Assembly (NCBI RefSeq): GCF_009695745.1
Contig: NZ_VUNH01000008.1
Span: 1 to 64,000, forward strand
DNA length: 64,000 bases
Reading direction: 5' to 3'
From: Pyramidobacter porci
GTDB taxonomy: Bacteria; Synergistota; Synergistia; Synergistales; Dethiosulfovibrionaceae
Shown here: piece after piece, positions 1,558-50,606 of the stretch
Position numbering within the stretch: the stretch's first letter is position 1
Layout: each line of letters starts with the position of its first letter
Notes under the pieces: model-generated
Told to the model about the DNA's origin: nothing
The model's input: only the letters and a program-made list of their open reading frames with translations
Database searches by the model: none
Position numbers and translations under genes: made by a program

Positions 1558-1589
1558 TTATTAAAAAGCATGTTCGGTTGTTCCACGGG

Positions 1590-1874
1590 GCTAAAGGCAT
1601 GACCGGCAAACAGGTGCAGCTCGTCCTCGACCAGGCTGGCATCACCCTCAACCGCAACATCGTCTCGTTCGAGACCTTCAGCCCGATGCTCACCAGCGGC
1701 GTGCGCATCGGCACGGCGGCGGCCACGCGCGGCTTCGGTCACGAGGAGATGGGCAAGATCGCCGGTTGAATCAAGCGCTTCGTCGCCTACATTGGCGGCG
1801 AAGCCGAGATCAAAAAAGTCCGCGCCGAGATCACCGAGCTCTGCGAGGAAAAACCGCCCTATCCCGGGCTGTAG
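1590..1874 (+). pseudogene. Remnant of a second glyA 3' end
   Basis: From about 1590 the plus strand reads [17 protein letters not shown]..., then [24 protein letters not shown], which is SHMT-like. An in-frame TGA at 1767-1769 replaces the Trp codon found in the window-start copy. Beyond it the same frame continues with SHMT-like residues to TAG at 1872-1874. The last ~150 bases are clearly homologous to bases 1-152 but have diverged at many positions, so this is an old duplicate. There is no N-terminal part: the similarity begins abruptly about 30 bases after the symporter stop. A short ORF up to 1769 should not be called a gene. Confidence 0.8.
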
Positions 1875-1980
1875 TTAGAAAAAACACCTCAATAGGGCTC
1901 TTGAGAACAGATTGAATTTATAAGCGCCCTTACCGGCAAAACAAAGGATTTAGGAGAAACGAACCGCGGAAGAGGAAATT
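1875..1980 (+). other. Leader of the M20/YfcC cluster
   Basis: About 100 AT-rich bases between the glyA remnant and the next gene. A TATAAG box is present at 1919-1924 but no well-spaced -35 was found. AGAGGAAATT just before 1981 serves as ribosome binding site. Confidence 0.3.
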
Positions 1981-3291
1981 ATGAACACAGAGAATATCAA
2001 AGCAGCTGCCGCAAAATATGAAAAGGACATGACGGCATTTCTCAGGAAGATCGTGAGACATCCAGGGGAAAGCGCACAAGAGAGCGCTCACGCAACCGTC
2101 ATAGCGGAAGAGATGAGGAAGCTTTCTTTTAACAGAGTCAAAACGGATCCCATGGGCAATGTACTGGGATACATGGGAACAGGGAAAAGACTTATTGCCT
2201 TTGACGCGCATATTGACACCGTAGGCATAGGAAACAGAGACAATTGGGATTTTGACCCATATGACGGGTATGAAAATGAAACAGAAATCGGGGGAAGAGG
2301 AGTATCAGACCAACTCGGAGGAGTTGTAAGCGCGACATACGGAGCCAAGATCATGAAGGATCTGGGAATATTGAACGACAAATTTACCGTTTTGGTGACT
2401 GGCTCCGTTCAGGAAGAGGACTGCGATGGACTTTGCTGGGAATACATCATCAAAGAAGACGGTATAAAGCCCGAGTTTGTAGTGTCTACCGAACCCACAG
2501 ACGGCGGTATATACAGAGGCCAGCGCGGGCATATGGAGATACGCGTAGATGTGAAAGGAGTTTCATGCCATGGCTCGGCGCCTGAAAGAGGCGACAACGC
2601 CATATATAAAATGGCAGACATTTTACAGGATATCAGAGCGCTTAACGAAAATGGGTTCTCTGCCGGAGACAAGATCAAGGGTCTCGCGAAAATGCTCGAC
2701 AGCAGGTACAACGCGGATTATGCCGAAGCAAACTTTTTAGGGAAGGGAACGATCACCGTATCGGAAATTTTTTTCACCTCTCCAAGCCGATGCGCCGTAG
2801 CTGACTCCTGCTCCATATCGCTGGACAGGCGCATGACTGCCGGCGAGACCTGGGAAAGCTGTTTGGCCGAGATAAGGACGCTGCCGGCGGTTAAAAAATA
2901 CGGGGATGACGTAAAGGTCAGCATGTATCAATATGCCCGAGCGTCGTACACAGGGCTTACATACCCCATAGAGAGCTATTTTCCCACGTGGGTGCTTCCA
3001 AGAGACCATAAGCTCACCCTCGCCATGGAACAAGCGCACAAAGAACTTTATGGAAACGACAGAACTTCTCCCCCGTCTCAGGAAAGCGTACGTGCGGAAC
3101 GCCCCCTCGTGGATAAATGGACTTTTTCAACAAACGGAGTGTCCATCATGGGAAGAAATCATATTCCCGTCATCGGATTCGGCCCCGGCAGCGAGGCCCA
3201 AGCCCACGCTCCCAATGAAATCACTTGGAAACAGGACCTGGTAACATGCGCCGCTTTGTACGCTATGCTACCGCTTACGTATTTCAAATAA
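1981..3291 (+). CDS. M20-family metallohydrolase, YgeY-like (selenium-metabolism-linked hydrolase type)
   Basis: A 436-residue cytoplasmic M20/M28-type zinc amidohydrolase. Metal ligands seen: DAHID (His77, Asp79), GRGVSDQ (Asp110), QEED (Glu145/146), STEP (Glu171) and HAPNE (His409). The text around [38 protein letters not shown] and [17 protein letters not shown] matches my memory of the YgeY family, found beside selenium-dependent purine/ureide catabolism genes. The true substrate of that family is not settled; deacylation or hydrolysis of an N-substituted amino acid is inferred. First of three M20 paralogues in the window; forms a cluster with the carrier and second M20 gene downstream. 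Codon use is more AT-rich than in the surrounding core genes. Confidence 0.85.
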
Positions 3292-3426
3292 GAGAATGGA
3301 GACAAAACATATCAAACCATCAAGGAGTTTTTATCGGCCGTATCTTTTTTACAACTGTCAGGCACAGCAAAAGCGCTTTAGTTGAGATGTCCTGTATTGG
3401 ACTTAAGACGAAGAGGGAGGGAAAAT

Positions 3427-4845
3427 ATGTGTAAAGAAAATATTAGCGAGAAGAAAAAATTTACCATGCCCCATATCTTTATCATCCTTTATGCCATCAT
3501 ACTGCTTGTAGGACTTCTGAGCTACGTACTGCCTGCGGGGGTATATGACAGAGTCGCGGACGCGACCACGGGTAGAATGATTATTAACCCCGCATCCTAT
3601 CATGTGGTCAAATCGAACCCTACGGGCGTTATGGATCTGCTTGAAGCGTTTCCCAACGGTTTCGTCGATGCAGGGTATGTAGTTGTTCTTACATTCTGCG
3701 TATGCGGCGGATTCTACGTTGTCAACCAGAGCGGAGCCATAGGGGGCGCCATATCATGGCTGGCCAAAAAGATGAAGAACCGCGGCATATGGATAATTCC
3801 GATACTCATGATCACTTTCGCTGCCATAGACTGTTTTATTGGCATGTGCGAGTTATGCATGGTCTACGTGCCGATCATACTTCCGCTCATGCTGGCGCTG
3901 GGATTTGACTCCATGACGGCGTGCGCTACCGCGCTTTGCGGTTCCGCCATCGGATTCACGTCAGCTATAGCAAATCCGTTCACAACCATCATCGGTCAAA
4001 AAATCGCAGGTCTCCCGTTGCTGTCGGGCTGGCAACTCAGACTTATCTCTCTTATAGTCGTCGGGCTTGCGGGCATAGTTTATGTAATGTCGTACGCAGC
4101 CAAGATAAAAAAAGATCCCACGTCTTCCATCATGTACGAAGAAGACCTCGTTCTCAGAAAAGAACTCGAAACATCGTCAAATCAGGAAAAAAAGATGACA
4201 GGCAGGCAAAAACTCGCCGGTATCGCCGCTCTTGTCATGTTCGTCGTCATGGTATACGGAGTGTTTCAATGGGGCTGGGACACGCCTGAAATCGGCGGCA
4301 TATTCATGGGAATGGCCATGGTATCGGGCCTTATTTCAGGGATGAGACCCAACGAGATCTGCTCTACGTTCCTGAACGGATGCCAGCAGGTTCTTTTGGG
4401 AGCCTTGATCGTCGGACTTTCCAGAGGCGTATCTGTGGTTATGAGCAGCGCTCAGATTACAGATACCATCATACACAATCTGGCGACCGTGCTTCAAAAC
4501 CTGCCGGCAAGCGTTACATCCGTGGGTATGCTCATAGTGCAGACCATCATGAACTTCCTTATCCCCTCAGGTTCGGGGCAGACTGTCGTCACCATGCCCA
4601 TCATGGCCCCTCTTTCGGATCTGGTCGGAGTTACGAGACAAACGGCTGTTCTTGCCCTTCAGTACGGCGACGGTTTCTCCAATATTTTTTATCCCGTCTC
4701 AGGATATTTTATGGCGACTCTCGCTCTCGGTCACGTTCCCTATGGAAAATGGATGAAGAAGATGGCGCCTCTGTTTGTCATATGGACTGCGTTAGCCGCC
4801 GTATTCATGGTTATCGCTCAGCTTATTAAGTGGGGACCATTCTAA
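3427..4845 (+). CDS. YfcC-family membrane carrier (DcuC-like)
   Basis: A 472-residue polytopic protein starting MCKENISEKKKF with the family's LSYVLPAGVYDR segment near residue 35. Hydrophobic helices run to the C-terminus, with the re-entrant-type segment NFLIPSGSGQTVVTMPI near residues 378-394. YfcC/DcuC-like carriers move carboxylates, amino acids or small peptides; the substrate here is unknown. The ATG at 3427 is chosen because GAGGGAGGG lies 6-14 bases upstream; the frame is open from 3382 without another good site. The stop is directly followed by the ATG of the next M20 gene, so import and hydrolysis are probably coupled. Confidence 0.8.
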   Translation: MCKENISEKKKFTMPHIFIILYAIILLVGLLSYVLPAGVYDRVADATTGRMIINPASYHVVKSNPTGVMDLLEAFPNGFVDAGYVVVLTFCVCGGFYVVNQSGAIGGAISWLAKKMKNRGIWIIPILMITFAAIDCFIGMCELCMVYVPIILPLMLALGFDSMTACATALCGSAIGFTSAIANPFTTIIGQKIAGLPLLSGWQLRLISLIVVGLAGIVYVMSYAAKIKKDPTSSIMYEEDLVLRKELETSSNQEKKMTGRQKLAGIAALVMFVVMVYGVFQWGWDTPEIGGIFMGMAMVSGLISGMRPNEICSTFLNGCQQVLLGALIVGLSRGVSVVMSSAQITDTIIHNLATVLQNLPASVTSVGMLIVQTIMNFLIPSGSGQTVVTMPIMAPLSDLVGVTRQTAVLALQYGDGFSNIFYPVSGYFMATLALGHVPYGKWMKKMAPLFVIWTALAAVFMVIAQLIKWGPF

Positions 4846-6171: not shown

Positions 6172-7257
6172 ATGGTCAAAGCGTGTTTTATGAGAAAGGT
6201 ACTCGCTGCAGCAGCCGTCGTTATGATTTTGGGCGCCGGCACGGCTTCCGCCGCGCCGGAATACAAGTGGCGCTTCGGGCAGACTTCGGTCCGCGCCTCG
6301 CAGGGCAAGTCTTACAAGCTCTTCTGCGAACTGATCAAGAAGTACAGCAACGGCCGTATTGAGGTCGAATTCTTCCCCGACAACCAGCTTGGGACTCTCA
6401 ATGAGATCTTCCACGCCGTACAGGACGGCGAAATTGAGATGTGCGGCTTCGCTCCTTACGTCAATCTCGTTCCCGGCGGCATGTTCAACTGGATGCCGTG
6501 GACTGTCGAGTCGTGGGAAGAGTGCAAGATGGCTTTCTCGCGTCCCGACGGATGTCTCTACGTGCCTCTCGAGGAGGCCATGAAGGAAGTCGGCGTTCAC
6601 ATTCTGTTCACCGTTTCACAGGGATCCTACGGTATCGGCAACAGCGTGCGCCCGATCAAAACGCCGGCTGATTTCAAGAATCTGAAAATGCGCGTCTCTT
6701 CGTCGCTCGGCTGCGTCCGCGGCCTGCAGAACATGGCCGAGGGAACGGGCATGACCGTCGAAACCGTGCCGTGGGGCGATCTTTACAACGCTCTGGCGAA
6801 AGGCGTGGTCGACGGCTGCTGGGATATGTGGCCTTCGCTCGTCGAGGAGCGTCACTGCGAGGTCATGAAATATTACACGTCTCTGGATTGGATGTGGGAC
6901 GCCAATCAGGTCGTCATCAACGCCGAACTCTGGGCGAAGCTGCCCGACGATCTCAAAGTCGCAATCCAGAAGGCGGCCGACGAGGCCGAAGCCGATCAGT
7001 ACGCCATCCAAATCGCCGAAGAGAACAACTTCAAAGAATTCCTCAAGAAGCAGCCTCACTTCGAGATTTACTATCCGACCGAGGCGGAGCGCGCCGAATT
7101 CCGCAACCGCGCCCGCAATCTCGACAACTGGAACGATCTTTGCAAGCCGTGGCTCGACAAGCACTTCCCCGGTCAGGATATGACCGCGAAGATTCTCGAC
7201 CAGCTTCGAATCAATCGCGAAAAGGTATTAGCCGACAAGGCCGCAGCTGCAAAGTAA
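6172..7257 (+). CDS. TRAP transporter substrate-binding protein (DctP family)
   Basis: A 361-residue periplasmic solute-binding protein. Residues 1-28 form a signal peptide (MVKACFMRKVLAAAAVVMILG...ASAA). The mature part has the DctP-type pattern YKWRFGQTSVRASQGKSY, IEVEFFPDNQLG and LKMRVSSSLG, ending in a lysine/alanine-rich tail. The start has an excellent site, AAGGAGG at 6158-6164. TRAP-P proteins bind carboxylate-containing solutes and deliver them to the Q/M permease encoded next. Gene order P-Q-M. An attenuator-like hairpin separates it from dctQ, as expected when the binding protein is needed in excess. With the deacylase downstream, an N-acyl amino acid is a plausible ligand (inference). 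Confidence 0.9.
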   Translation: MVKACFMRKVLAAAAVVMILGAGTASAAPEYKWRFGQTSVRASQGKSYKLFCELIKKYSNGRIEVEFFPDNQLGTLNEIFHAVQDGEIEMCGFAPYVNLVPGGMFNWMPWTVESWEECKMAFSRPDGCLYVPLEEAMKEVGVHILFTVSQGSYGIGNSVRPIKTPADFKNLKMRVSSSLGCVRGLQNMAEGTGMTVETVPWGDLYNALAKGVVDGCWDMWPSLVEERHCEVMKYYTSLDWMWDANQVVINAELWAKLPDDLKVAIQKAADEAEADQYAIQIAEENNFKEFLKKQPHFEIYYPTEAERAEFRNRARNLDNWNDLCKPWLDKHFPGQDMTAKILDQLRINREKVLADKAAAAK

Positions 7258-7270
7258 CAATCAGTATCAC

Positions 7271-7302
7271 AAGGGGGCGGCCCGAAAGCCGTCCCCTTTT
7301 TT
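7271..7302 (+). terminator. Intra-operon attenuator hairpin between dctP and dctQ
   Basis: AAGGGGGCGGC - CCGAAA - GCCGTCCCC followed by TTTTTT. A compact intrinsic-terminator structure inside the TRAP operon, 14 bases after the dctP stop; it would leave more dctP than dctQM mRNA. Confidence 0.75.
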
Positions 7303-7338
7303 GAAGCAAGATCTCTTTGACAGAAAAGGCGGTGCATT

Positions 7339-7854
7339 ATGAAAAAACTCTTTTCTTTCCTGCAGAAAACCGAATTCTTTCTCGGTTCTCTCGGGCTCCT
7401 GCTGGCCATAATTCTCACGTTCTGTCAGGTGGTAAACCGCTACTGGCTTCACTTTGAAATTATGTGGATCAGCGACGCGGCGCTGTACATCTTTATTTTT
7501 ACTATTTATGTGGCGATTTCCTACGGAGCCGCCGTAAAAACGCATATCGCCGTCGATATCCTTCCCGATGTCTTGTGCAAAAACAGCCGGGCGAAGCGCG
7601 CTTTATTCGACATGGCGAAAAGCGCCGTCACCGTCGCGATGATCCTGGCCATGTGGAGCCCCACGCTGCGCGTCGTCAAACGCGCCTGGAAGCATCCCGA
7701 GTTCGCCACGCTGGTGCGCTGGTTCAACACGAGCTGGCTCGTATACGCCATGGGCGTCATGCTCGTGCTGAACCTCCTCCATTACGGCTGGCATGTCTGC
7801 GAGGATATTTTCGAGCTGCAAAAACTCCGTTGGGAAAAAGAGGTGAAGGAGTGA
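7339..7854 (+). CDS. TRAP transporter small permease (DctQ family)
   Basis: A 171-residue inner-membrane protein with four predicted helices. Typical features are FCQVVNRYWLHFEIMW after the first helix, then ALYIFIFTIYVAISYGAAVKTHIAVD, the hallmark of the small TRAP subunit. It pairs with DctM to form the membrane part of the Na+-driven uptake system. Its TGA overlaps the ATG of dctM. Confidence 0.9.
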   Translation: MKKLFSFLQKTEFFLGSLGLLLAIILTFCQVVNRYWLHFEIMWISDAALYIFIFTIYVAISYGAAVKTHIAVDILPDVLCKNSRAKRALFDMAKSAVTVAMILAMWSPTLRVVKRAWKHPEFATLVRWFNTSWLVYAMGVMLVLNLLHYGWHVCEDIFELQKLRWEKEVKE

Positions 7855-9188
7855 TGTTCGATCTCGGCACTTCCACAACACTCGTTACGTTCCTCGCCGG
7901 TATCGTCGCGGGGCTGCCCATCGGCTGGGTTTTCATCGGCGCGACCGCTCTCGGCGTCATTCTCGGCGGCGGCACGATGACCTTCATCGCCAACTCCTTT
8001 TTCCATTCGCTCGATTCCTCGACGGTCATGGCCATTGCCTTTTTCGTCTTTTCCGGCGCTCTCATCGGCGAGGCAGGGCTGGCGGACCGCATCGTCAATT
8101 TTTCTTACGCGCTGGTCGGACGTCTCAAGGGCGGCCTGACGGCCGTCGGCATCGTCGCCACGCTGTTCATGGGGGCGCTTACGGGCTCTTCGGTTCCCTG
8201 TATCGCCGCGCTGATTCCCCTGCTTGTCCCCAAACTGGAAAAGTTCGGTTACAGCCGCGTCTACACGACGGCGCTGCTCTGCTCGTCCAGCTATCTGGGA
8301 TATCTGATCCCGCCCAGCGTGCCGGCCATGATTTACTGTCTGCTGGCCGGACAGTCGGTCGGCGCCCTGTTCCTTTCCACCGTCTTTCCCGGTCTGCTGC
8401 TGGCTCTCGGCTACTGCATCCTCAATTACCTTTACGTCGACAAATACACATCATCCAGCGCCGAAGTTCCGGAACTGCCCAAGACTTTTGCAGCTTCCGT
8501 CAAACAGGTGTGCCGCACCGGCTGGGTGGCTCTGCCGGCGCTGGGCTGTCCGGCGCTGATTTTGATCGGCATTTACGGCGGCATCTTTACGCCCAACGAA
8601 GCCGGCGGCATCGCGGCCATTTACTGTCTGCTGGTCGGCTGGTTCGCTTACCGCGAGCTGACCTGGAAACGCCTGAAAAAAGCCTTGTCCAGCACAGTCG
8701 GGACGTTCGGCATGACTACGCTGCTGCTTGCCGGCGGCACGGTTTTGACCCGTTACCTGACACGTCAGGGCGTGGCTCAGCAAGTGGCGTCGGCCATGCT
8801 TTTGATGTTCTCGAGCAAATACATGATTTTGCTCATGCTCAACATATTCCTGCTTTTCCTCGGCATGTTCCTCGACGGCATTCCCATTCTCATTCTGGTC
8901 GTACCGCTGGTGCTGCCCCTGATGACGGAGCTGGGGGTCAATCTGGTTCACCTCGGCGCGATCATGGTGGTCAACGTCGGCATCGGCGTGATGACGCCGC
9001 CGTTCGCCATGTCGATCTTCGTCGGATCGCGTTTGTCGGAAATCTCCGCGGCCAACCTGACGAAAACGATGCTGCCTTTCCTGTTCTACGTTTCCATCCC
9101 CGTCCTGCTGCTGACAACGTATTTCCCTTTCCTGTCGTGCTGGCTGCCCGAGCTGCTTCTGGGCGCGAACGTCGTCGGCGCGTGGTAA
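7854..9188 (+). CDS. TRAP transporter large permease (DctM family)
   Basis: A 444-residue polytopic membrane protein. The true start is the ATG at 7854, overlapping the dctQ stop (TGATG); the frame is open further upstream only because of high GC. Family motifs seen: GLPIGWVFIGATALG at the N-terminus, MGALTGSSVPCIAALIPLLVPK, SYLGYLIPPSVPAMIY, GGIFTPNEAGGIAAIY and GMFLDGIPILILVVPL. It forms the substrate/Na+ translocation path. No terminator follows before the deacylase gene 69 bases later, so both are probably in one transcript. Confidence 0.92.
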   Translation: MFDLGTSTTLVTFLAGIVAGLPIGWVFIGATALGVILGGGTMTFIANSFFHSLDSSTVMAIAFFVFSGALIGEAGLADRIVNFSYALVGRLKGGLTAVGIVATLFMGALTGSSVPCIAALIPLLVPKLEKFGYSRVYTTALLCSSSYLGYLIPPSVPAMIYCLLAGQSVGALFLSTVFPGLLLALGYCILNYLYVDKYTSSSAEVPELPKTFAASVKQVCRTGWVALPALGCPALILIGIYGGIFTPNEAGGIAAIYCLLVGWFAYRELTWKRLKKALSSTVGTFGMTTLLLAGGTVLTRYLTRQGVAQQVASAMLLMFSSKYMILLMLNIFLLFLGMFLDGIPILILVVPLVLPLMTELGVNLVHLGAIMVVNVGIGVMTPPFAMSIFVGSRLSEISAANLTKTMLPFLFYVSIPVLLLTTYFPFLSCWLPELLLGANVVGAW

Positions 9189-41807: not shown

Positions 41808-41932
41808 TGTGATCGTCTTCTCCCTTCCAACGGAAAGAACGCGCTCGCGCTTTCCCCGTAGAATTTTATTATACACAATCAGCGAGGCGCGCGTAAATTC
41901 CTGCCGAAAGCAGACGACGAGCGCCTTTGCCA

Positions 41933-41966
41933 AAATAAAAATTCCCCGCGATATTTCGCGAGGAAT
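41933..41966 (-). terminator. Terminator after the minus-strand GntR gene
   Basis: On the minus strand ATTCCTCGCGA - AATA - TCGCGGGGAAT followed by TTTTATTT; one G-T wobble in the stem. About 50 bases after the stop. Confidence 0.8.
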
Positions 41967-42014
41967 CGATGATGAGCATGCACGTGGAAGCGAAAAGCGC
42001 TTTACCTTCTACGA

Positions 42015-42710
42015 TTATTGCCTATTTCCCTTAAGGTCCTCATAAAGAGTATCCGTCCAGGCTGCGTCAATATGTCTGAGCATGGCAGCCCGTGCGGCCT
42101 CCGGACGATGATCCTTCACCATTTCGTAAATCTCGCTATGCTCCCGGCTGTACGTCGTGAGAATTTCTTTGGGCAGCAGTCCGTATTTTTTCCTCAATGA
42201 ATTTAATTCGGCTTTCACCGAGGTAAAAATCTTGGACAGAAGCTGATTGCCGGCAATATCCATCAGCATTCTATGAAAATTCTGATGCGCTTCTGTGATA
42301 TCCGCACCAGCTGGTGGTTCAAGTACATCGTGCAACTGTTTAATCTGCTCGGGAGTGGCGCGCTTTGCCGCCAAATAGGCCGCGTGCCCCTCCAACAGAT
42401 CGCGCATTTCCTTCAGTTCCCACAAAGAGTTGCTGCCAAAGGCGGTCGAGGCCAATTGCGGCCCCTCAATATTCTGCAATGCATCCTCAGTTATAAAGGT
42501 GCCGCTGCCAGGGTAGGCTTTGACAATGTTCGCCAGCGCCATGGCTTTCAAAACCTCTCGGATACAATTACGACTCACCTGAAACTGCTGAGCCAGAACC
42601 ATTTCTCCCGGCAGCCGCTCACCAGGTTTCCATTGTCCGTTTTTTATTCCGTCGATCAGCTGAGCAAGGACATTGTCGTGCAAAGACGCCCGATTAGCTG
42701 GCTTTATCAT
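42015..42710 (-). CDS. GntR/FadR-family regulator (FCD domain), divergent from the TRAP-reductase module
   Basis: A 231-residue regulator from ATG 42710 (GTG 42722 is an alternative and closer to AGGAAAGA). Winged helix MVLAQQFQVSRNCIREVLKAMALANIVKAYPGSGTFI, then the helical FCD domain with HQNFHRMLMDIAGNQLL and SREHSEIYEMVKDHRPE (metal/ligand-binding Asp/His positions). Divergent placement from the TRAP operon, with ~450 bases of AT-rich control DNA between, makes it the likely regulator of 43178-49738. A dyad inside its own promoter suggests autoregulation. Confidence 0.88.
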   Translation of the reverse strand: MIKPANRASLHDNVLAQLIDGIKNGQWKPGERLPGEMVLAQQFQVSRNCIREVLKAMALANIVKAYPGSGTFITEDALQNIEGPQLASTAFGSNSLWELKEMRDLLEGHAAYLAAKRATPEQIKQLHDVLEPPAGADITEAHQNFHRMLMDIAGNQLLSKIFTSVKAELNSLRKKYGLLPKEILTTYSREHSEIYEMVKDHRPEAARAAMLRHIDAAWTDTLYEDLKGNRQ

Positions 42711-42754
42711 GCCATACGTCACTCTTTCCTGATTGATTATTTGTAGTATTTTTA

Positions 42755-42783
42755 ATTATAACATGCCTTACAAGGCTGTCCAA
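42755..42783 (-). promoter_or_regulatory. Promoter of the GntR gene with operator-like dyad in the spacer
   Basis: Minus strand TTGGAC (42778-42783), 17-base spacer, TATAAT (42755-42760). The spacer contains GCCTT-AC-AAGGC (42765-42776 on plus), a symmetric site a GntR dimer could occupy. Confidence 0.65.
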
Positions 42784-43078
42784 TATTTAATAGAGAAAGC
42801 CAACAGAAATGATCGCCTTATTATCTTCGAAAAAATTTCTGAAAAATGCAGGAACTTTTTTGAATGTCGTTTTGTTGGCCTATAACATACTTCCAAAGAA
42901 TTTATAGTTCATTCATCATTTATTGTGCTAACAGACTAATAAACGTAATATTCCTCTGTTATTTTGTCTAGTCCATACTAAAAAATGAATTAAAAAATAA
43001 AGTATTATATTTCATAATAATACACATTCCTGTTTAGCAATTGACTTCCTCTGGATTAAATGTTAATGTTCTATTGTT

Positions 43079-43114
43079 GAACATGTTCGATGACTCGCCT
43101 ATTTGACGTATAAT
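43079..43114 (+). promoter_or_regulatory. Candidate promoter/operator of the TRAP-reductase module
   Basis: TATAAT at 43109-43114 with a weak -35 (TTCGAT, 17-base spacing). The 10-bp palindrome GAACATGTTC (43079-43088) overlaps the -35 region. Confidence 0.4.
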
Positions 43115-43177
43115 TCTTTTGTTTTATGTGGTCGATCGTACAGGAATGGAAATTTAAATTAAGTGGAGGTGACCACC

Positions 43178-43708
43178 ATGAATGATTCGGGAACGCATTG
43201 TGTTTTGAGATGCGCTGCCGATAAACTGCAGGATATTCTTCTCGTCCTGCTGATAACGATCGTGGCTTCGCTTGTGTTCGTTCAGGTCGTCCTGCGCTAC
43301 ATTTTCCACGCGCCGCTGATGGGTATTGAAGAGTTGTTGCTATTTCCGACAACATGGCTCTTTATGATTGGCGCTGTCAAAGCTTCGTCTGAGAAAACTC
43401 AGATCGTCGCCCGAGTGCTGGAGGTCTTTCTGAGAACTCCTCGCTCCATAAGCGCTGTCCGCGCTCTCGCATCGTTCTTTACCTGCTCTGTGCTTGTCTG
43501 GCTGATTCGTTGGGGTTATGACTACTTTAAATATCTGATCCGCATGGAGAAAGAGAGTCCCACGCTCTACCTGCCGACGATTTGGTATGAAGGGCTTGTT
43601 TTTGTCGCACTGATTCTCATGCTTGTCTATTCCTGTGTCGAGCTGTACGAACATATCAGTCATTTTAGGCACGGTACTGCGGCCAGTCTGCGTCAGGAGG
43701 GTGAATGA
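43178..43708 (+). CDS. TRAP transporter small permease (DctQ family)
   Basis: A 176-residue membrane protein with four predicted helices. VFVQVVLRYIFHAPLMGIEELLLFPTTWLFMIGAVKASSEKTQIVARVLE is the typical DctQ central block. The ATG at 43178 is set by GGAGGTGA at 43165-43172; the GTG at 43163 overlaps the ribosome binding site. First gene of a Q-M-P operon (the TRAP set at 6172 has order P-Q-M). Its TGA overlaps the next ATG. Confidence 0.88.
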   Translation: MNDSGTHCVLRCAADKLQDILLVLLITIVASLVFVQVVLRYIFHAPLMGIEELLLFPTTWLFMIGAVKASSEKTQIVARVLEVFLRTPRSISAVRALASFFTCSVLVWLIRWGYDYFKYLIRMEKESPTLYLPTIWYEGLVFVALILMLVYSCVELYEHISHFRHGTAASLRQEGE

Positions 43709-45021
43709 TCATGGTTAGTCTTGCTCTGGCGTCGCTAGGGGTTCTTATCATTCTGCTGACCTTTGGCGTGCCGCTCCCGTTTTGCTTTGGCGGGGCGTTG
43801 GCTTATATGAGTATTATCGGCGGCGTCTCCATGAAGGGAATGCTCATGTGGGGACTGCAGCAGATTCTCAGCCCAACGCTACTTTGCGTACCATTGTTTA
43901 TCTTCGCCGGCGGCCTCATGGGAATCAGCGGCATTGCCAAGTATCTGCTTGACTTTGTCGACGGTTTCGTAGGACGTAAGAAAGGCGGATTGGGCGTAGT
44001 GGCAACGGTAACCTGTGCGATCATTGGAGCCATTTCCGGCAGCGGTTTTACTGGCGTGGCAGCAACAGGGCCTCTACTGATCCCCAGAATGGTGGAACGA
44101 GGTTATCCGCGCGGCTATGCGACTGCCCTGATTACCGATTCGTCCATTCTTGGTCTGTTAATTCCGCCCAGCGTGATCATGATCGTTTTCGGCTGGGTCA
44201 CGGAGACGTCAATTCTGGCCTGTTTCCTTTCCACGGTCATTCCTGGATTGCTGGTGACTTTGCTGTTCTCGATTATTAATCTAGTTTGGTCACGCCGGTT
44301 CCCGCTGGTGCTTGAACCGGAGACCAGCAAAGCCGAGCGTCGCAAGGAAATCATGCGCCGCGGTTGGAAAGCCCTGCCCGCTTTGATGATGCCCGTTATT
44401 ATCCTCGGGGGCATCTACGGCGGAGTGATGACGCCAACCGAAGCTGCGTCCGCTGCCATTATCTATTCAATTCCAATCGGCATTTGGGTCTACGGCGGCC
44501 TCAAAGGCAGGGATTATTTCCGCATCGCCAAGGATTCAGCCGTCTCCGTCGGTTCAATTATGCTGATGATCATGTGCAGCATGATGCTGAGCCAAACGTA
44601 TGTCATGCTTCAGATTCCCCAAAGTATCGTCAAAACGGTTTTCGGCATCACGCAAAACAGGACGCTACTTTTGATTCTGATTAATTTACTGCTTCTGTTT
44701 GTCGGCATGATCGTCAACGACTTGACCGGAGTTATTCTCGTGGCGCCGCTGCTTCTCCCGTTGGTAAAGGCCATCGGCATCGATCCCATTCACTTCGCCG
44801 CGATTATGGGAGTGAACCTGGCGATCGGCGGCGTCACTCCGCCCTACGCAAGCATTCTCTACTTGGGGATGCGCGTCGGCGATGTGGAATTCACCGATAT
44901 TCTTGGTCCCGCTATGGTGTTTGTGCTTCTAGGTTATCTTCCGGTCATGATCATGACGTCGTTCTGGCCCGCGTTGTCTCTGTGGCTCCCCAGCCTGCTG
45001 GGGTACGTTGTTCTCCCTTAG
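43705..45021 (+). CDS. TRAP transporter large permease (DctM family)
   Basis: A 438-residue polytopic permease starting MIMVSLALASLGVLIILLTFGVPLPFCFGG. DctM hallmarks: GAISGSGFTGVAATGPLLIPRMVERGYPRGYATALITDSSILGLLIPPSVIMIVFG, GGIYGGVMTPTEAASAAIIYS, and GVNLAIGGVTPPYASILYLG. Overlaps dctQ by 4 bases. Imports an anionic solute together with the binding protein encoded next. Confidence 0.92.
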   Translation: MIMVSLALASLGVLIILLTFGVPLPFCFGGALAYMSIIGGVSMKGMLMWGLQQILSPTLLCVPLFIFAGGLMGISGIAKYLLDFVDGFVGRKKGGLGVVATVTCAIIGAISGSGFTGVAATGPLLIPRMVERGYPRGYATALITDSSILGLLIPPSVIMIVFGWVTETSILACFLSTVIPGLLVTLLFSIINLVWSRRFPLVLEPETSKAERRKEIMRRGWKALPALMMPVIILGGIYGGVMTPTEAASAAIIYSIPIGIWVYGGLKGRDYFRIAKDSAVSVGSIMLMIMCSMMLSQTYVMLQIPQSIVKTVFGITQNRTLLLILINLLLLFVGMIVNDLTGVILVAPLLLPLVKAIGIDPIHFAAIMGVNLAIGGVTPPYASILYLGMRVGDVEFTDILGPAMVFVLLGYLPVMIMTSFWPALSLWLPSLLGYVVLP

Positions 45022-45086
45022 GGGCTCTGTTGCCAAAGGCAATAAAATCGATTCGATGTTCTAATTTTTTTCAGGAGGCGATGGTT

Positions 45087-46082
45087 ATGAAGAAGTTTGG
45101 TATTGTCGTACTTGCTGCGCTGTTTTGCTGCTCCAGCGTCTGTGCCGCGGAAAAGACCTATACGTGGAAGATTTCTACGATTCGTCCGGCCGGTACCGCC
45201 ATAGACAATGATGTGAAAGCTTTCATCAAAGAAGTCAAAACCAAGTCCAACGGCCGAATCAACATCGAGATTTACCCCAACGCTCAGCTCGGCGACTACA
45301 CGGTGGTGCAGGAGCGTATCAGCGTCGGTTCCGTGGAGATGGCTGTGCAGTCCATCAGCACATCGGTGGACCGTCAGTTGCAGATGGTCAATCTGCCCTA
45401 TCTTGTCAAGGACTGGAGCGGCATCCGCAAAAATTTCCGCACCGGTTCGCCCTTCATGAACTGGCTTGCTGAACGTCTTGCCAAACAAGACATCAAGCTC
45501 TTAGGCATGTGGCCCTCCTACTTCGGCGGCATCGCGCTTGCCAAAGAACCGCCCAGCCCCGGCAATCCTTCCGTCAACAAGGGCTTGAAGGTCCGCGTCA
45601 TGCCTCAGAAATCCTACGAACTGCTCGGCGAATCTCAGGGCTACATGGCTACGCCTCTGCCTCTGGCTGAGACATTCACAGCCTTGCAGACCGGCATTGT
45701 CGACGGCATTTTTGGAGCCGGCGCTGAGGGCTATTATGCCAATTACCGCGACCTGGTAAAGTTCTATATCCCTTCCAACACTCACGTTGAAGCGTGGCCT
45801 TTGATTATGAACATGGAGCTGTGGGAGTCCCTTTCCGACGGAGACAAGAAAATCATCGTCGAGGCCGCCAAGCACTTCGAAGATCATCGCATGGAAGTCG
45901 GCGAAGCGGATACCGCGTACAACGAAAAACGCCTTGAGGACTACGGCGCAAAGATCATCCGTCTTACCCCCGAGCAGCTGACCGCCTGCGCTGAGGCCGC
46001 CCGCAAAGCGATTTTCCCCGCGATCCGCGAAGCCATCGGTCCAAAAAATTTTGACGCCGTCGTCAGTATGATCAACGAGTAA
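45087..46082 (+). CDS. TRAP transporter substrate-binding protein (DctP family)
   Basis: A 331-residue periplasmic binding protein with signal peptide MKKFGIVVLAALFCCSSVCA. Mature features: TYTWKISTIRPAGTAIDNDVKAF, GRINIEIYPNAQLGDYTVVQERISVGSVEM, KGLKVRVMPQKSYELL and TGIVDGIFGAGAEGYY. ATG 45087 has AGGAGG at an 8-base distance; ATG 45081 is too close. It should capture the substrate consumed by the adjoining component-B reductase, which for known Grd systems would be glycine, sarcosine or betaine. A strong terminator follows the gene. Confidence 0.9.
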   Translation: MKKFGIVVLAALFCCSSVCAAEKTYTWKISTIRPAGTAIDNDVKAFIKEVKTKSNGRINIEIYPNAQLGDYTVVQERISVGSVEMAVQSISTSVDRQLQMVNLPYLVKDWSGIRKNFRTGSPFMNWLAERLAKQDIKLLGMWPSYFGGIALAKEPPSPGNPSVNKGLKVRVMPQKSYELLGESQGYMATPLPLAETFTALQTGIVDGIFGAGAEGYYANYRDLVKFYIPSNTHVEAWPLIMNMELWESLSDGDKKIIVEAAKHFEDHRMEVGEADTAYNEKRLEDYGAKIIRLTPEQLTACAEAARKAIFPAIREAIGPKNFDAVVSMINE

Positions 46083-46100
46083 GAAATCTGCTTGCTTTAT

Positions 46101-46132
46101 GGAAAAGAGTCATTCTCTTTTCCATTTTTTTC
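46101..46132 (+). terminator. Intrinsic terminator between dctP and the reductase genes
   Basis: TGGAAAAGAG - TCATT - CTCTTTTCCA followed by T7, 18 bases after the stop. The reductase genes therefore need readthrough or their own promoter. Confidence 0.85.
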
Positions 46133-46203
46133 CGATTCCAACTTGTTCAACAGCTTGCGTTTCCAGCATAACATTTCAATCGCTCTGTGGAGGTGTAGAA
46201 GTT

Positions 46204-47496
46204 ATGGAACTCTTTCACTTAAGAAGGATCAAGATCGCCGACATCACATTGTCAAACCGAAATGCCGTAGAAAACGGCAATCTTTATGTCAATGAAGCCG
46301 AATTGAGAGCGATGCTGCTTGAGGATCGCCACCTTAAAGACGTAAGGATCGAAGTGGCGCGTCCTGGCGAAAGCGTGCGCATTGTTCCCGTAAAAGACAT
46401 TCTCGAACCTCGCTCACGCCTGAACGACGACGAGGAATCCTTTATCGGCACCATCACCGACGCTAACTACCAAGCGGGAACCGGCACATCGATCGTGATG
46501 GACGGCGTATGTGTCGTTACATCAGGCAACATGGTCAACTTTCAAGAAGGGCTGATCGATATGAGCGGCCCCGGCGCGGAATTTAATCTATTTTCAAAAA
46601 AGTGCAATCTCGTCTTGGTCATGGAGCCTGCCGAAGGCATCACCAAGCCTGAGCACGAACGTGCCGTCCGCCTTGCCGGCGTTCGTGCCGCCCGCTACAT
46701 CGGCGACATCGGCCGCGGCGTGAAGGAGTTCAAGGAAGTGACCTACCCGGTATACACGCTGGAAGAGCGCCTTGAAAAGTTCGCCAAGCTGCCCAAGGTC
46801 GTCTACGTCTGCCAGGCTATCGCCGAGGGCCTGCTCCACGACAACTATTTCTACGGCGTGAATGCCCAGGGCTGCCTGCCCATGCTCTGCAATCCCACCG
46901 AGCTTATGGACGGCGCGGTCGTCAGCGGCAACTGCGCCGCGCCTTGCCACAAGCATACCACCTACCACCACCAGAACAATCCGCTCATCGAAGACCTGCT
47001 CGACGAAGACGGCAAGACAATCAATTTGATGGGGATCATTGTCGCACCGGTGAAGACGGCTTTCGCCGAAAAGGAACGTATCGCCCGCCAGATTCTCAAG
47101 ACCGCCCAGATGCTTGGCGCTACGGCGGCCATTGTCAGCGAAGACGGCGGCGGCAATCCGGAAGCGGATCTGATGATGGCCGCCCGTTACTTTGAAAAAG
47201 TCGGTATCAGAACCGTGCTTGTTACCGACGAATACGCCGGTTCCGACGGGGCCTCCGCGGGACTTGCCGACATCACGCCCGAGGCTGACGCAGTGATCAC
47301 CAACGGGAACGGCAACCAGCGCGTCATCCTTCCGCCCATGGACAGGGTCATCGGCGTGATCGACGCGGTCGACTACATCACCGGCGGTCATGTAGGCAGT
47401 TTTCGTCCTGACGGTTCCATTGACATGGAAATCGCCGGCATCATGGGTTCGACAAACGAACTTGGCATTGAAAATCTCAAGACTGTGGCCATCTAG
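46204..47496 (+). CDS. Glycine/sarcosine/betaine reductase component B, proprotein subunit (GrdE/GrdG/GrdI-like)
   Basis: A 430-residue proprotein. SGNCAAPCHKHTTYHHQNNP at 241-260 holds the Asn243-Cys244 pair at which such proproteins are cleaved. Cys244 would become the pyruvoyl group that forms a Schiff base with the substrate amino group. KCNLVLVMEPAEGITKPEHE and EFKEVTYPVYTLEERLEKFAKLPKVVYV are family blocks. The ATG at 46204 follows GGAGGTG; the open frame upstream runs through the terminator. Together with the GrdB-like selenoprotein it forms substrate-specific component B. Whether it acts on glycine, sarcosine, betaine or another amine cannot be told from sequence alone. Confidence 0.88.
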   Translation: MELFHLRRIKIADITLSNRNAVENGNLYVNEAELRAMLLEDRHLKDVRIEVARPGESVRIVPVKDILEPRSRLNDDEESFIGTITDANYQAGTGTSIVMDGVCVVTSGNMVNFQEGLIDMSGPGAEFNLFSKKCNLVLVMEPAEGITKPEHERAVRLAGVRAARYIGDIGRGVKEFKEVTYPVYTLEERLEKFAKLPKVVYVCQAIAEGLLHDNYFYGVNAQGCLPMLCNPTELMDGAVVSGNCAAPCHKHTTYHHQNNPLIEDLLDEDGKTINLMGIIVAPVKTAFAEKERIARQILKTAQMLGATAAIVSEDGGGNPEADLMMAARYFEKVGIRTVLVTDEYAGSDGASAGLADITPEADAVITNGNGNQRVILPPMDRVIGVIDAVDYITGGHVGSFRPDGSIDMEIAGIMGSTNELGIENLKTVAI

Positions 47497-47508
47497 GAGG
47501 AAGAGAAG

Positions 47509-48822
47509 ATGTGTGCAGTAAAAACAATTCACTATATGAACCAGTTCTATGGTCAGATCGGCGGCGAAGAAAAAGCCGGCGTAGGCCCTTCCGTTCTCGA
47601 TGGAGCTAATAACCTTGGCAAACAGATCGAAAAGGCTTTTAACGATGAAATCGTTATTGCTAAAACCATCATCTGCGGCGACAACTACGCTGCCGAGCAT
47701 CCTGAAAAAATCAAGGATTTCGTTTTTCAGGTAATCAAAGACAACGATGCAGGGTTCTTTATCGCCGGTCCCTCCTTTGCCGCCGGCCGCTATGGCATGG
47801 CGTGCGGCATGCTGTGTCAGGCTGTCGCCAGAGAATTGAAACTGCCAGTTATCGCCGCCATGAACGAAGTCAGCCCCGGCGTCGATATCGCCAAACGCGA
47901 CGTGTACGTCGTAAAAACGAGCGATTCCGCTCGCGATATGAAAAACGCTTTGGCCGGAATGGCACGTATCGGCACCAAGCTACTCAAAGGCGAACGCATC
48001 GGTCTGCCCGCCGAAGAAGGCTATCACCCCCGCGGCATCCGCGTTAATATTCGCGAGAAAAAGCGCGGTTCCCGCCGCGCCGTCGACATGCTGATTGCCA
48101 AAGCAACCGGCACCCCCTATCTCACGGAATTGCCCATGCCCACCTATGATCACGTACCGCCTGCGCCAGCAGTGAAAGACATCAAGCACGCGCTTCTGGC
48201 CATTGGCACTGAAGGAGGCATCGTTCCCCGAGGCAATCCCGATCACATCGAGGCCCACAACGCTTCCAAGTGGAAGAGTTACAGTCTTGTCGGCATTGAA
48301 ACGCTGAAAGCCGGCGACTACGAAGTAGCCCATGGCGGTTACGATCCTGTCCCCGGCAACGCCAATCCCAATCGCGTCCTGCCGTTGGACGTGGCGCGCG
48401 CCTGTCAAAAAGAGCTTGATTTTGGCGCGTTGCTTGATGAATACCCAGTGACCGTCGGTAACGTGACCGCCGTGAAATCCGCCGAGAAGTACGGTCACGA
48501 AATGGGACTGAGACTTCAAGAGAAAGGCGTGCAAGGCATCGTTCTGACGTCCACTTGAGGCACTGGTACGCGTTGCGGTGCAACGCTTGCCCGTGAGATC
48601 GACCGTGTCGGCATCCCTGCGGTTCTGATCACGGCCGTTCCCTCGATCGCTCTGACCGTCGGCGCTAACCGCATTGTTCGCGGCGTTGCCATCCCTACAC
48701 CTATCGGCAAGCCGGACGAAGAGCCTAACGACGAGTATGCAATCCGCATGAAGATCTTCAAAAAAGCGATCGAAGCTCTTGCAACTTCAATCGACAAGCA
48801 GACGGTCTTCAACGTTGACTAG
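47509..48822 (+). CDS. Selenoprotein: glycine/sarcosine/betaine reductase component B selenocysteine subunit (GrdB/GrdF/GrdH-like)
   Basis: 437 residues when the in-frame TGA at 48556-48558 is read as selenocysteine (Sec350); stop TAG 48820-48822. Before the TGA the text is VQGIVLTST, after it GTGTRCGATLAREIDRVGIPAVLITAVPSIALTVGANRIVRGVAIPTPIGKPDEEPNDEYAIRM; the Sec-centred motif T-U-GTGTRCGA is diagnostic. The N-terminus FYGQIGGEEKAGVGPS is also typical. The Sec removes the amine and passes the carboxymethyl group to selenoprotein A. GGAGGAAGAG precedes the ATG. A plain ORF caller would truncate this gene at 48558. Confidence 0.93.
48556..48590 (+). promoter_or_regulatory. Bacterial SECIS element
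   Basis: The TGA is followed after 11 bases by a perfect stem GCGTTGC (48570-48576), loop GGT, GCAACGC (48580-48586), with outer pairing GGC (48559-48561) with GCC (48589-48591). Position and small G/U-containing loop suit SelB binding. It is inside the coding sequence. Confidence 0.8.
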
Positions 48823-48824
48823 AA

Positions 48825-49247
48825 ATGTTAGTTCTGTCCAATAATCCTCAGGTCTGGGATTCTTGTCAGGTGAACTATGAACGGATTGAAGGCACGCCGC
48901 GGGAAGTCCTGTATAGAGCGCTTGACCTGGTGGGAAGCGGGGAGTATTCTCTCTTTGCGCACCCCGTCGCAGGGAATGAACGTCTTCTGCGCAACCCTTA
49001 CCGCACGGTGGTTTTGACTCAGACCCCGCCGGCGCGCAGACGCATCCCGCAGGATCGACAGACGGCTTTCATCAACAGAGCCCTGGACAAAGTGGAAGAC
49101 ATCGAATACGGCGAGATTCCCGCCGGAACTCACGCGGATTACGCAACCGTCGATTTCGAGCTTTTCAAAACGACGATGAACAGCGCTGAAAACGGGGAGC
49201 GGCAAGAGCTCCTCTCTCTCCGGCAGCAAAAATTCAAAACGTGGTGA
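48825..49247 (+). CDS. grdX: GrdX-family protein
   Basis: A 140-residue cytoplasmic protein starting MLVLSNNPQVWDSC and containing ALDLVGSGEYSLFAHPVAGNERLLRNPYRTVVLTQ, which I recognise as the GrdX family. GrdX is regularly encoded with glycine/betaine reductase genes; its function is not established. It starts 2 bases after the selenoprotein stop, so it is in the same operon. Confidence 0.8.
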   Translation: MLVLSNNPQVWDSCQVNYERIEGTPREVLYRALDLVGSGEYSLFAHPVAGNERLLRNPYRTVVLTQTPPARRRIPQDRQTAFINRALDKVEDIEYGEIPAGTHADYATVDFELFKTTMNSAENGERQELLSLRQQKFKTW

Positions 49248-49252
49248 TTGGC

Positions 49253-49738
49253 ATGAGCATCAAAGAAAGACTGAAAGAACTGGGCATCGAGCTTCCGCCC
49301 GCGAACAAGCCCACGGGATCCTATGTGCCCGCCACGGCTTCGGGAACGCTGTGCTTCTCCTCCGGACAGACGCCGCGCGTCAACGGCGAGGTCGCGTACA
49401 CCGGCACAATGGGCGCAGAAAACGGCCCCAGCCTCGAAGAAGCCTACGCGGCCGCCCGCGTCTGCGCCATCAACTGTCTGGCCGCCGTCGACATGGCCGC
49501 CGGGCTGGACAACGTGGCACGCGTCCTCAAGGTCACAGGCTTCATCAACGCCGCTCCGGGCTTCACGCAGACGGCCAAAGTGCTGAACGGCGCCTCCGAT
49601 CTGCTGCTCGAGGTGTTCGCTCAGGCCGGTCGCCACGCCCGCAGCGCCATCGGCATCCAGGCCTTGCCCGGCAATGCGGTCGTCGAAGTGGAAATCGTTG
49701 TCCGCCTCAAGGAGCCACGCGAATTCCCCGCAGACTGA
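49253..49738 (+). CDS. RidA/YjgF-family protein (enamine/imine deaminase type)
   Basis: A 161-residue member of the larger RidA subgroup. KPTGSYVPATASGTLCFSSGQTP, AYAAARVCAINCLAAVDMAAGLDNVARVLKVTGFINAAPGF and GRHARSAIGIQALPGNAVVEVEIVVRL include the conserved arginine (in HARSAIG) that hydrolyses enamine/imine intermediates. The ATG at 49253 is 5 bases after the grdX stop; a GTG at 49241 overlaps grdX. In this operon it may clear reactive imines linked to the pyruvoyl chemistry of component B (inference). Confidence 0.88.
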   Translation: MSIKERLKELGIELPPANKPTGSYVPATASGTLCFSSGQTPRVNGEVAYTGTMGAENGPSLEEAYAAARVCAINCLAAVDMAAGLDNVARVLKVTGFINAAPGFTQTAKVLNGASDLLLEVFAQAGRHARSAIGIQALPGNAVVEVEIVVRLKEPREFPAD

Positions 49739-49752
49739 CCCCATGCTCTGCA

Positions 49753-49787
49753 AAAAATCCCTGCCGCTTTCGCGGGCAGGGATTTTT
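49753..49787 (+). terminator. Intrinsic terminator after ridA
   Basis: AAAAATCCCTGCC ... GGCAGGGATTTTT, 13-bp stem with loop of 9. Ends the reductase operon. Confidence 0.88.
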
Positions 49788-49844
49788 CATGCCGCTTAAA
49801 AACAGGAACGCTTTCGCAGCTTCCAGCCGCCGCGGATCTTCGCA

Positions 49845-50600
49845 GTCAGGACCACCGGCTAAGCCGGTGGCTTGCTCTGGCCCTATAAGGGCCTCTTACC
49901 GGCCACCCTCTCGGGCTCTGAAAAGGCTGACAAGCGCACCTCTATCACAGGCAAGCCACTAAAGTGGCTCTTTACTTGCCTCTTCTCACCGACTCACCCG
50001 TAAACGGGTCTTCCAGTTCTTTCAGGGTGAGCTGATCTGTCAGCTTGTCCTCCTGAAGTTGATTGTGAATATATTCTATTATCTTCTTTTCATTGCGCCT
50101 TACTGTATCCACATAATAGCCTCGGCTCCGGAATTTTCGGTTCCCATACCTGTATTTCAGGTTCGCGAATCTATCAAAGATCATCAGTGAACTTTTGCCT
50201 TTCAGAAATCCAATGACTTCCGATACGCTGTATTGAGGCGGTATTTGCAGCAGCATGTGGATATGATCGGGACACGCGTTTGCCTCCAATATTTCTACTC
50301 CCTTGCGTTCACACAGCGTTCTCAGTATTTTCCCAATTTCTGCTCTGAGCTTGCCATATATGAGACGACGTCTGAATTTAGGGGCAAAGACAACATGATA
50401 TTTGCAGTTCCAAGTCGTATGTGATAAAGTTTCATTGGCATTCTGTGCCATTTCTAAGCTCCCTTCGATTATTTCGGATGCGGTTGCCAGCCTCATCTAT
50501 CTTAATCTCAGGGAGCATTTCTTTCACTTCGATAAAAAACAAAATACTTGACCATAGCTTAAAGCTTCCTGAACCCCCGGCACAGCCGGGGGGTTTCTTT
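49845..50600 (-). mobile_element. IS200/IS605-type insertion sequence (tnpA only)
   Basis: About 750 bases around a Y1 transposase. The right end has tandem hairpins CCACCGGC-TAA-GCCGGTGG (49852-49870) and GGCCCT-ATA-AGGGCC (49879-49893). The left end has CCCCCGGC-CACA-GCCGGGGG (50573-50592). There are no terminal inverted repeats or target duplication, as expected for single-strand-transposing elements. It lies between two terminators. Exact cleavage sites were not determined. Confidence 0.8.
49972..50451 (-). CDS. tnpA: IS200-family Y1 (HUH) transposase TnpA
   Basis: A 159-residue transposase, full length for IS200. TTWNCKYHVVFAPKFRRRLIYG is the family N-terminus, ACPDHIHMLLQIPP holds the HUH metal motif (His63, His65), and RGYYVDTV the catalytic tyrosine (around 112-113). 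The ATG at 50451 follows GGGAG; open frame to 50496 is not conserved. The ORF looks intact, so the element may be active. Confidence 0.95.
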   Translation of the reverse strand: MAQNANETLSHTTWNCKYHVVFAPKFRRRLIYGKLRAEIGKILRTLCERKGVEILEANACPDHIHMLLQIPPQYSVSEVIGFLKGKSSLMIFDRFANLKYRYGNRKFRSRGYYVDTVRRNEKKIIEYIHNQLQEDKLTDQLTLKELEDPFTGESVRRGK

Positions 50601-50606
50601 GAACAA

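Follow-up and report, generated by a model that had tools for sequence, protein, structure and literature searches.

A stretch of 64,000 nucleotides of Pyramidobacter porci DNA (contig NZ_VUNH01000008.1, positions 1 to 64,000; hereafter, the window) carries a cassette in which the genes of a tripartite ATP-independent periplasmic (TRAP) transporter are followed by genes for GrdE-like and GrdB-like subunits of a selenoprotein reductase and for GrdX. Component B determines which Stickland-type electron acceptor anaerobes can use. Maximum-likelihood trees of both subunits group the window pair with 15 further loci (14 from Synergistota) in a single clade supported at 100/100; the glycine, sarcosine, betaine, FarE/FarB, and clostridial sequences included in the trees all fall outside it. 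On these sequence grounds, the window pair belongs to a conserved branch separate from the reductases known for glycine, sarcosine, betaine, proline, and fluoroacetate. We put the probability at roughly 0.7 that the cassette encodes a component B for a non-classical amine substrate and feeds a shared GrdA/C/D core. The substrate is probably other than glycine, sarcosine, betaine, D-proline, or fluoroacetate, and these bacteria probably gain energy by reducing a substrate of such kind.

Organization of the cassette

The locus comprises the following features.

42015..42722, minus strand: GntR/FCD transcriptional regulator, divergent from the operon (Pfam FCD 87 bits, GntR 56 bits)
43067..43083, unstranded: palindrome TGTTC-N7-GAACA, candidate operator 5' of dctQ (sequence search with shuffles)
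43163..43708, plus strand: open reading frame of DctQ, TRAP small permease (PF04290, 62 bits); likely start at ATG 43178, preceded by a ribosome-binding site
43705..45021, plus strand: DctM, TRAP large permease (PF06808, 275 bits)
45087..46082, plus strand: DctP, TRAP solute-binding protein (PF03480, 133 bits)
46099..46125, plus strand: possible attenuator between dctP and the GrdE-like gene, a terminator-like hairpin with a T run
46204..47496, plus strand: GrdE-like component B proprotein (PF09338, 542 bits); SGNC at residues 241-244
47509..48822, plus strand: GrdB-like selenoprotein with selenocysteine (Sec) 350 (PF07355, 458 bits)
48556..48558, plus strand: in-frame UGA for Sec, context TSTUGTGTRC; UGA in 16/16 clade members
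48570..48586, plus strand: stem-loop resembling a selenocysteine insertion sequence, with a GGU apical loop (RNA folding; tRNA-Sec in the genome)
48825..49247, plus strand: GrdX (NF038093, 60 bits, cut-off 40)
49253..49738, plus strand: RidA/YjgF family protein (PF14588/PF01042), a resident neighbour, probably outside the module
49752..49788, plus strand: intrinsic terminator 3' of ridA (-25.2 kcal/mol, z -4.3)

An earlier note on the window had described the divergent regulator, the TRAP genes, the component B genes, GrdX, and RidA as one co-directional group closed by a terminator at the RidA end, and all of these are found. The Q, M, and P subunits are all present, as in a TRAP transporter of the DctP type. 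A second TRAP system at 6190-9158 of the window is distant from that of the cassette (DctP 23% and DctM 35% identical).

Active-site signatures of the two subunits

The adjoining PF09338 and PF07355 subunits place the pair in the Grd-type component B superfamily. The Asn243-Cys244 site that the earlier note had read in the GrdE-like product is confirmed, in the context SGNCAAPCHK, and cleavage at this site is predicted. The context is invariant in all 16 clade members, as are UGTGTRC and GPxF[AG]AGR of the B subunit. In UGTGTRC, a glycine replaces the cysteine of UxxC. At the [AG] position of GPxF[AG]AGR, the glycine, sarcosine, and fluoroacetate enzymes carry Asn or Phe. In addition, His249 of the E subunit and Glu235, His250, and Asn251 of the B subunit are invariant in the clade and differ from the glycine enzymes. 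Replacement of Asn by a small residue and the additional polar positions would be consistent with a substrate that is larger and more polar. No solved structure of the family is found on which to place the pocket: a fold search with the GrdE model gives no match at E<=0.001, and the matches of the GrdB model are weak (TM about 0.2).

Sec350 of the GrdB-like product has the same residue number as Sec of C. sticklandii GrdB (PMC3091704). A 7-bp stem with a GGU loop begins 11 nt 3' of the UGA. Folding of 42 nt after the UGA gives the expected hairpin, and folding of 55 nt gives a competing structure. The tRNA-Sec of the host genome scores above the gathering score.

Position outside the characterized families

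The family models used have assigned members only for glycine, sarcosine, betaine, D-proline, and fluoroacetate, and we compare the bits with the NCBIfam cut-off of each model. The window pair misses the cut-off of every specificity model tested: glycine GrdB (TIGR01917; 470 bits, cut-off 602), sarcosine GrdG and GrdF (NF040793 and NF040794; 448/780 and 504/800), betaine GrdH (NF040795; 446/775), fluoroacetate FarE (NF053623; 131/675), and D-proline PrdA and PrdB (TIGR04480 and TIGR04483; 55/700 and 77/300). The published sarcosine GrdF motif is absent as well (no IHGGYDR/TTGTGT). The betaine type is marked by an E subunit without the pyruvoyl cysteine (as in PMC10838667), whereas SGNC is present in the window pair. 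The phylogeny that the earlier note had suggested as a check puts both subunits outside the characterized clades. The sarcosine reference in it is thin: a single locus in the 188 Synergistota genomes exceeds the NCBIfam cut-off, and motif-positive relatives make up the rest.

The pair could alternatively be a divergent glycine component B, that is, a second glycine isoform with its own regulator and with a TRAP transporter importing glycine or a small amino acid. Of the published glycine motif (PMC9751293), the GrdB-like subunit has the blocks AHGGxD[QTAP], RV[IL]PxD, and TxGNxTxV; since most of this motif is kept, divergent glycine reduction is possible. In the E tree, the closest neighbour of the clade is the Synergistota glycine/sarcosine group (95/87). 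However, all 16 clade members fail the block GPxF[NF]AGRYG, which the canonical glycine pair of the host, on contig C13, passes. The GrdB score below cut-off, the loss of the cysteine after Sec, and the gain of new invariant residues also argue against a glycine isoform, which we consider unlikely.

A haloacetate reductase resembling FarEB would at least belong to the same phylum, as fluoroacetate-reducing FarEB is known in Synergistota (PMC10838667). FarB also lacks the UxxC cysteine and shares the acidic residue 235 and Asn251 with the window clade. However, the window protein scores far below the FarE cut-off, FarE has lost the pyruvoyl cysteine region, and FarE and FarB each lie in a clade separate from the window proteins. 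The invariant SGNC of the window clade points to an amine substrate, and a haloacetate substrate is very improbable.

The same comparison reveals other unusual pairs. Locus L084 (genome G029, 1498-4117) has an odd component B pair, with an E subunit without SGNC and a B subunit with UGTSTRC; it sits on a long branch near FarEB and is possibly a further type. In some clostridial GrdE-like proteins (L025, L028, and L026), SGNC is replaced by NGCC, NGTC, or NGNC, so that the Asn before the pyruvoyl cysteine is changed in some of them. A single contig of Anaerovorax odorimutans SL.3.17 carries both the L025 and the L028 pair.

Conservation of the transporter-linked pair

Homologues were sought in one genome per species. 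Matches at 57-78% GrdE identity come from Synergistota records and from one metagenome-assembled genome titled Deltaproteobacteria, which the taxonomy used places in Myxococcota (L021); clostridial GrdE matches are at about 40% identity. The clade (at least 57% identity) is carried by 14 of the 188 Synergistota genomes searched, the window's included. There is a clear gap below it, the next matches being at most 49% identical.

In 13 loci, an orthologous TRAP transporter is encoded no more than 10 kb from the pair (DctM 64-87% identical). The TRAP subfamily is present in 14/14 clade genomes and in 17 of the 174 others (Fisher 5.5e-13, uncorrected for relatedness). L064 has no neighbouring TRAP gene, and its contig is short. 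L021 has a TAXI-type TRAP transporter instead; here, genes for thioredoxin, a GrdC-like protein, and the start of GrdA adjoin the pair. GntR homologues flank most clade loci. The earlier note had proposed TRAP, GrdEB, GrdX, and RidA as an undescribed unit. TRAP-GrdE-GrdB-GrdX is indeed conserved in Synergistota, but RidA does not belong to it, as described below. Literature searches on TRAP plus Grd, or on opines plus the enzymes described below, which covered open-access papers, gave no account of such a unit. The closest solved relatives of DctP are distant (best E 5e-26), too distant for the ligand to be taken from solved binding proteins.

The reductase core and other component B pairs of the host

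The host genome (2.5 Mb, 22 contigs, 98% complete) holds one GrdA (G000:C10:7468-7908) and, side by side, GrdC and GrdD (about G000:C1:224061-226860), all above curated cut-offs. These core genes sit on other contigs and none is near the cassette. The location of the core supports the proposal of the earlier note that the locus is a dedicated substrate cassette for a core encoded elsewhere. The note had also suggested that the substrate may not be one of the classical three, which is probably correct.

Including the window pair, the genome has four GrdE/GrdB pairs. The C13 pair is of the glycine type: it scores above the cut-off for glycine GrdB and has the published motif of that type. The C12 pair is sarcosine-like: it groups with a clade that mostly has the published sarcosine GrdF motif, and its own motif is IHGGYDT instead of IHGGYDR. 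The C3 pair is betaine-like, being closest to betaine GrdH but under the cut-off, and it has no pyruvoyl cysteine. The gene after it presumably encodes a BCCT-like transporter, as recognized from its sequence. Other species of the genus (L070-L078; G116-G118 and others) carry FarE above the cut-off, and the window's genome does not. Thus, the non-classical component B that is retained varies among siblings.

Proposed reaction and substrate

In glycine and proline reductases, the pyruvoyl group binds the amine and Sec attacks the alpha carbon (PMC3091704). From the gene content, the signatures, the clade, the TRAP linkage, and the separate core, we infer the processing, chemistry, coupling to the core, and substrate class as follows. 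The TRAP transporter would bring in an anionic small molecule. The GrdE-like proprotein would cleave itself at Asn243/Cys244 to generate a pyruvoyl group, which would form a Schiff base with the primary or secondary amine of the substrate. Sec350 of the GrdB-like subunit would then attack the carbon beside the carboxylate, and the remainder would leave as an amine. The carboxymethyl-selenoether would be handed to the single GrdA, and GrdC/GrdD would yield acetyl phosphate and from it ATP. Given the single GrdA/C/D core found, the product should be a carboxymethyl-selenoether, and the substrate is therefore most likely X-NH-CH2-COO-, an N-substituted glycine.

The product could instead bypass GrdA, with a C-N bond cleaved within one molecule and the product released, as in D-proline reductase; an example would be a cyclic or alpha-substituted amino acid that is reductively opened or deaminated. 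Alpha-substituted substrates would be unsuited to GrdA/C/D, the locus has no core genes, and enzymes of the ornithine cyclodeaminase (OCD) type, which include proline- or pipecolate-forming members, are common neighbours in the clade. The pair nevertheless keeps the GrdE/GrdB architecture, scores far below the PrdA and PrdB cut-offs, and adjoins core genes in L021. A GrdA-independent reaction is quite unlikely. A component B feeding the shared core is supported by the same arrangement in L021, where the pair adjoins thioredoxin, the GrdC-like gene, and the start of GrdA, and by a host that already has glycine-, sarcosine-, and betaine-type pairs and one core.

As to the nature of X, most clade loci have nearby a protein of the octopine/nopaline-dehydrogenase family, one or two OCD/mu-crystallin proteins (alanine dehydrogenase is the best-matching model, with a score under its cut-off), and a fused iron-sulfur (Fe-S) serine-dehydratase-like enzyme, often with a second serine dehydratase alpha protein. 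These recurring neighbours suggest that X is an amino acid. The substrate might then be an opine-like N-carboxymethyl amino acid, an imino-diacid such as N-carboxymethyl-alanine, which, with opine-type enzymes around the same transporter, is the best-fitting guess but one that we regard as doubtful. In such a case, the TRAP transporter would import the opine, and GrdEB would cleave it reductively to an amino acid and acetyl phosphate. In many relatives, the opine dehydrogenase, the OCD-type dehydrogenase, and the Fe-S ammonia-lyases would oxidize the same compound or the released three-carbon amino acid to pyruvate. If true, this would be a Stickland-type dismutation of opines.

The same TRAP subfamily and the same enzymes occur without GrdEB in many other Synergistota loci (L143-L162), indicating that the TRAP transporter is part of a wider amino-acid-derivative module that includes GrdEB in a subset of cases. 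The substrate of the module without GrdEB is probably the same as that of the GrdEB clade. The host genome holds only a distant OCD and an opine-dehydrogenase relative, on contig C6. There (L163, 9150-12941), an OCD/mu-crystallin gene, a transporter-like gene without a Pfam match, and an opine-dehydrogenase-family gene stand in a row.

Several points weigh against a transporter-linked component B for a non-classical amine. The GrdB-like subunit keeps four of the five variable blocks of the published glycine motif, and the sarcosine and betaine reference set is small. L063 and L068 are second copies of the pair without an adjoining TRAP transporter, and the TRAP co-occurrence statistic is uncorrected for relatedness. 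In addition, the loci of the window and L015 consist only of the minimal TRAP-E-B-GrdX set, with no opine-type partners.

RidA and the history of the cassette

RidA had been taken in the earlier note for a member of the module that could protect against imines. No RidA homologue is present in any other clade locus, and its composition is host-like: the GC content at third codon positions is 0.80 in RidA, 0.56-0.70 in the cassette genes, and 0.82-0.87 in the two genes flanking the region. We also compared the corresponding sibling loci (L100, L102, and L101). Siblings G117 and G118 lack 41923-48891 of the window; at the junction, upstream sequence is joined to GrdX minus its first ~22 residues, followed by an intact RidA. 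The third sibling, G116, lacks the whole of 41902-50601. Absence elsewhere, host-like composition, and retention beside a truncated GrdX rule out RidA as a conserved part of the module, and imine protection is not a property of the module. RidA might still have an imine-protecting role in this species.

Most simply, the junctions can be read as an en bloc loss of the cassette in the siblings, with RidA outliving it. The overall GC content is about 0.53 in the cassette and 0.65 in the flanks, and a transposase of the IS200/IS605 family lies directly downstream (49972-50466; 134 bits, cut-off 55) and is missing from the siblings' flanks. A recent gain of the cassette, which the low GC content and the adjacent IS200 element might suggest, is unsupported, as two siblings share the deletion with a 5'-truncated GrdX. 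Given this shared deletion, the common ancestor most likely already carried the cassette. A transfer at an earlier time is possible, the nearest relative, L015, being in another family.

Expression signals

The palindrome TGTTC-N7-GAACA occurs once in the window and in none of 100 shuffles. The same palindrome lies 5' of dctQ in L015 (at 135), in the same relative place, and is not found in the other clade loci. The hairpin between dctP and the GrdE-like gene has an 11-bp stem (-14.1 kcal/mol, z -5.4). The corresponding position in L015 (about 3160-3210) has a different inverted repeat with a T run, as seen by eye; the two sequences are unrelated. The hairpin suggests that the unit may not be a single uniform transcript, and the binding protein may be produced in excess of the reductase through attenuation.

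Comparison with known systems

The occurrence of a conserved, transporter-linked clade with invariant signatures in 14 of the 188 Synergistota genomes implies that these amino-acid fermenters have an additional electron acceptor, and the linked TRAP binding protein gives a direct handle on the identity of the substrate.

Glycine GrdE/GrdB and the window pair share the Asn-Cys proprotein site, Sec at 350, a neighbouring GrdX, and a GrdA/C/D core in the genome. However, the window pair is 40-48% identical to them, lacks GPxF[NF]AGRYG and the UxxC cysteine, has a TRAP transporter, and forms its own clade. The sarcosine GrdG/GrdF models are the best-scoring NCBIfam models for both subunits, the pyruvoyl site is kept, and APC follows SGNC as in the sarcosine reference L091, but the window pair lacks IHGGYDR/TTGTGT and the trees keep the two apart. 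Betaine GrdI/GrdH belong to the same two subunit families; in contrast to the window pair, the C3 GrdI of the host lacks the pyruvoyl cysteine, and a BCCT-like transporter follows. D-proline PrdA/PrdB share a homologous mechanism with pyruvoyl and Sec and differ in protein sizes and architecture.

FarEB, reported from Cloacibacillus and Pyramidobacter (PMC10838667), is a precedent in the same phylum: it too is a non-classical component B pair associated with a dedicated transporter, and it has likewise lost the cysteine after Sec. FarE lacks the pyruvoyl site, whereas the window clade retains it, and FarACEB uses an MFS antiporter rather than a TRAP transporter. By these features and by its separate position in the trees, the window clade differs from FarEB.

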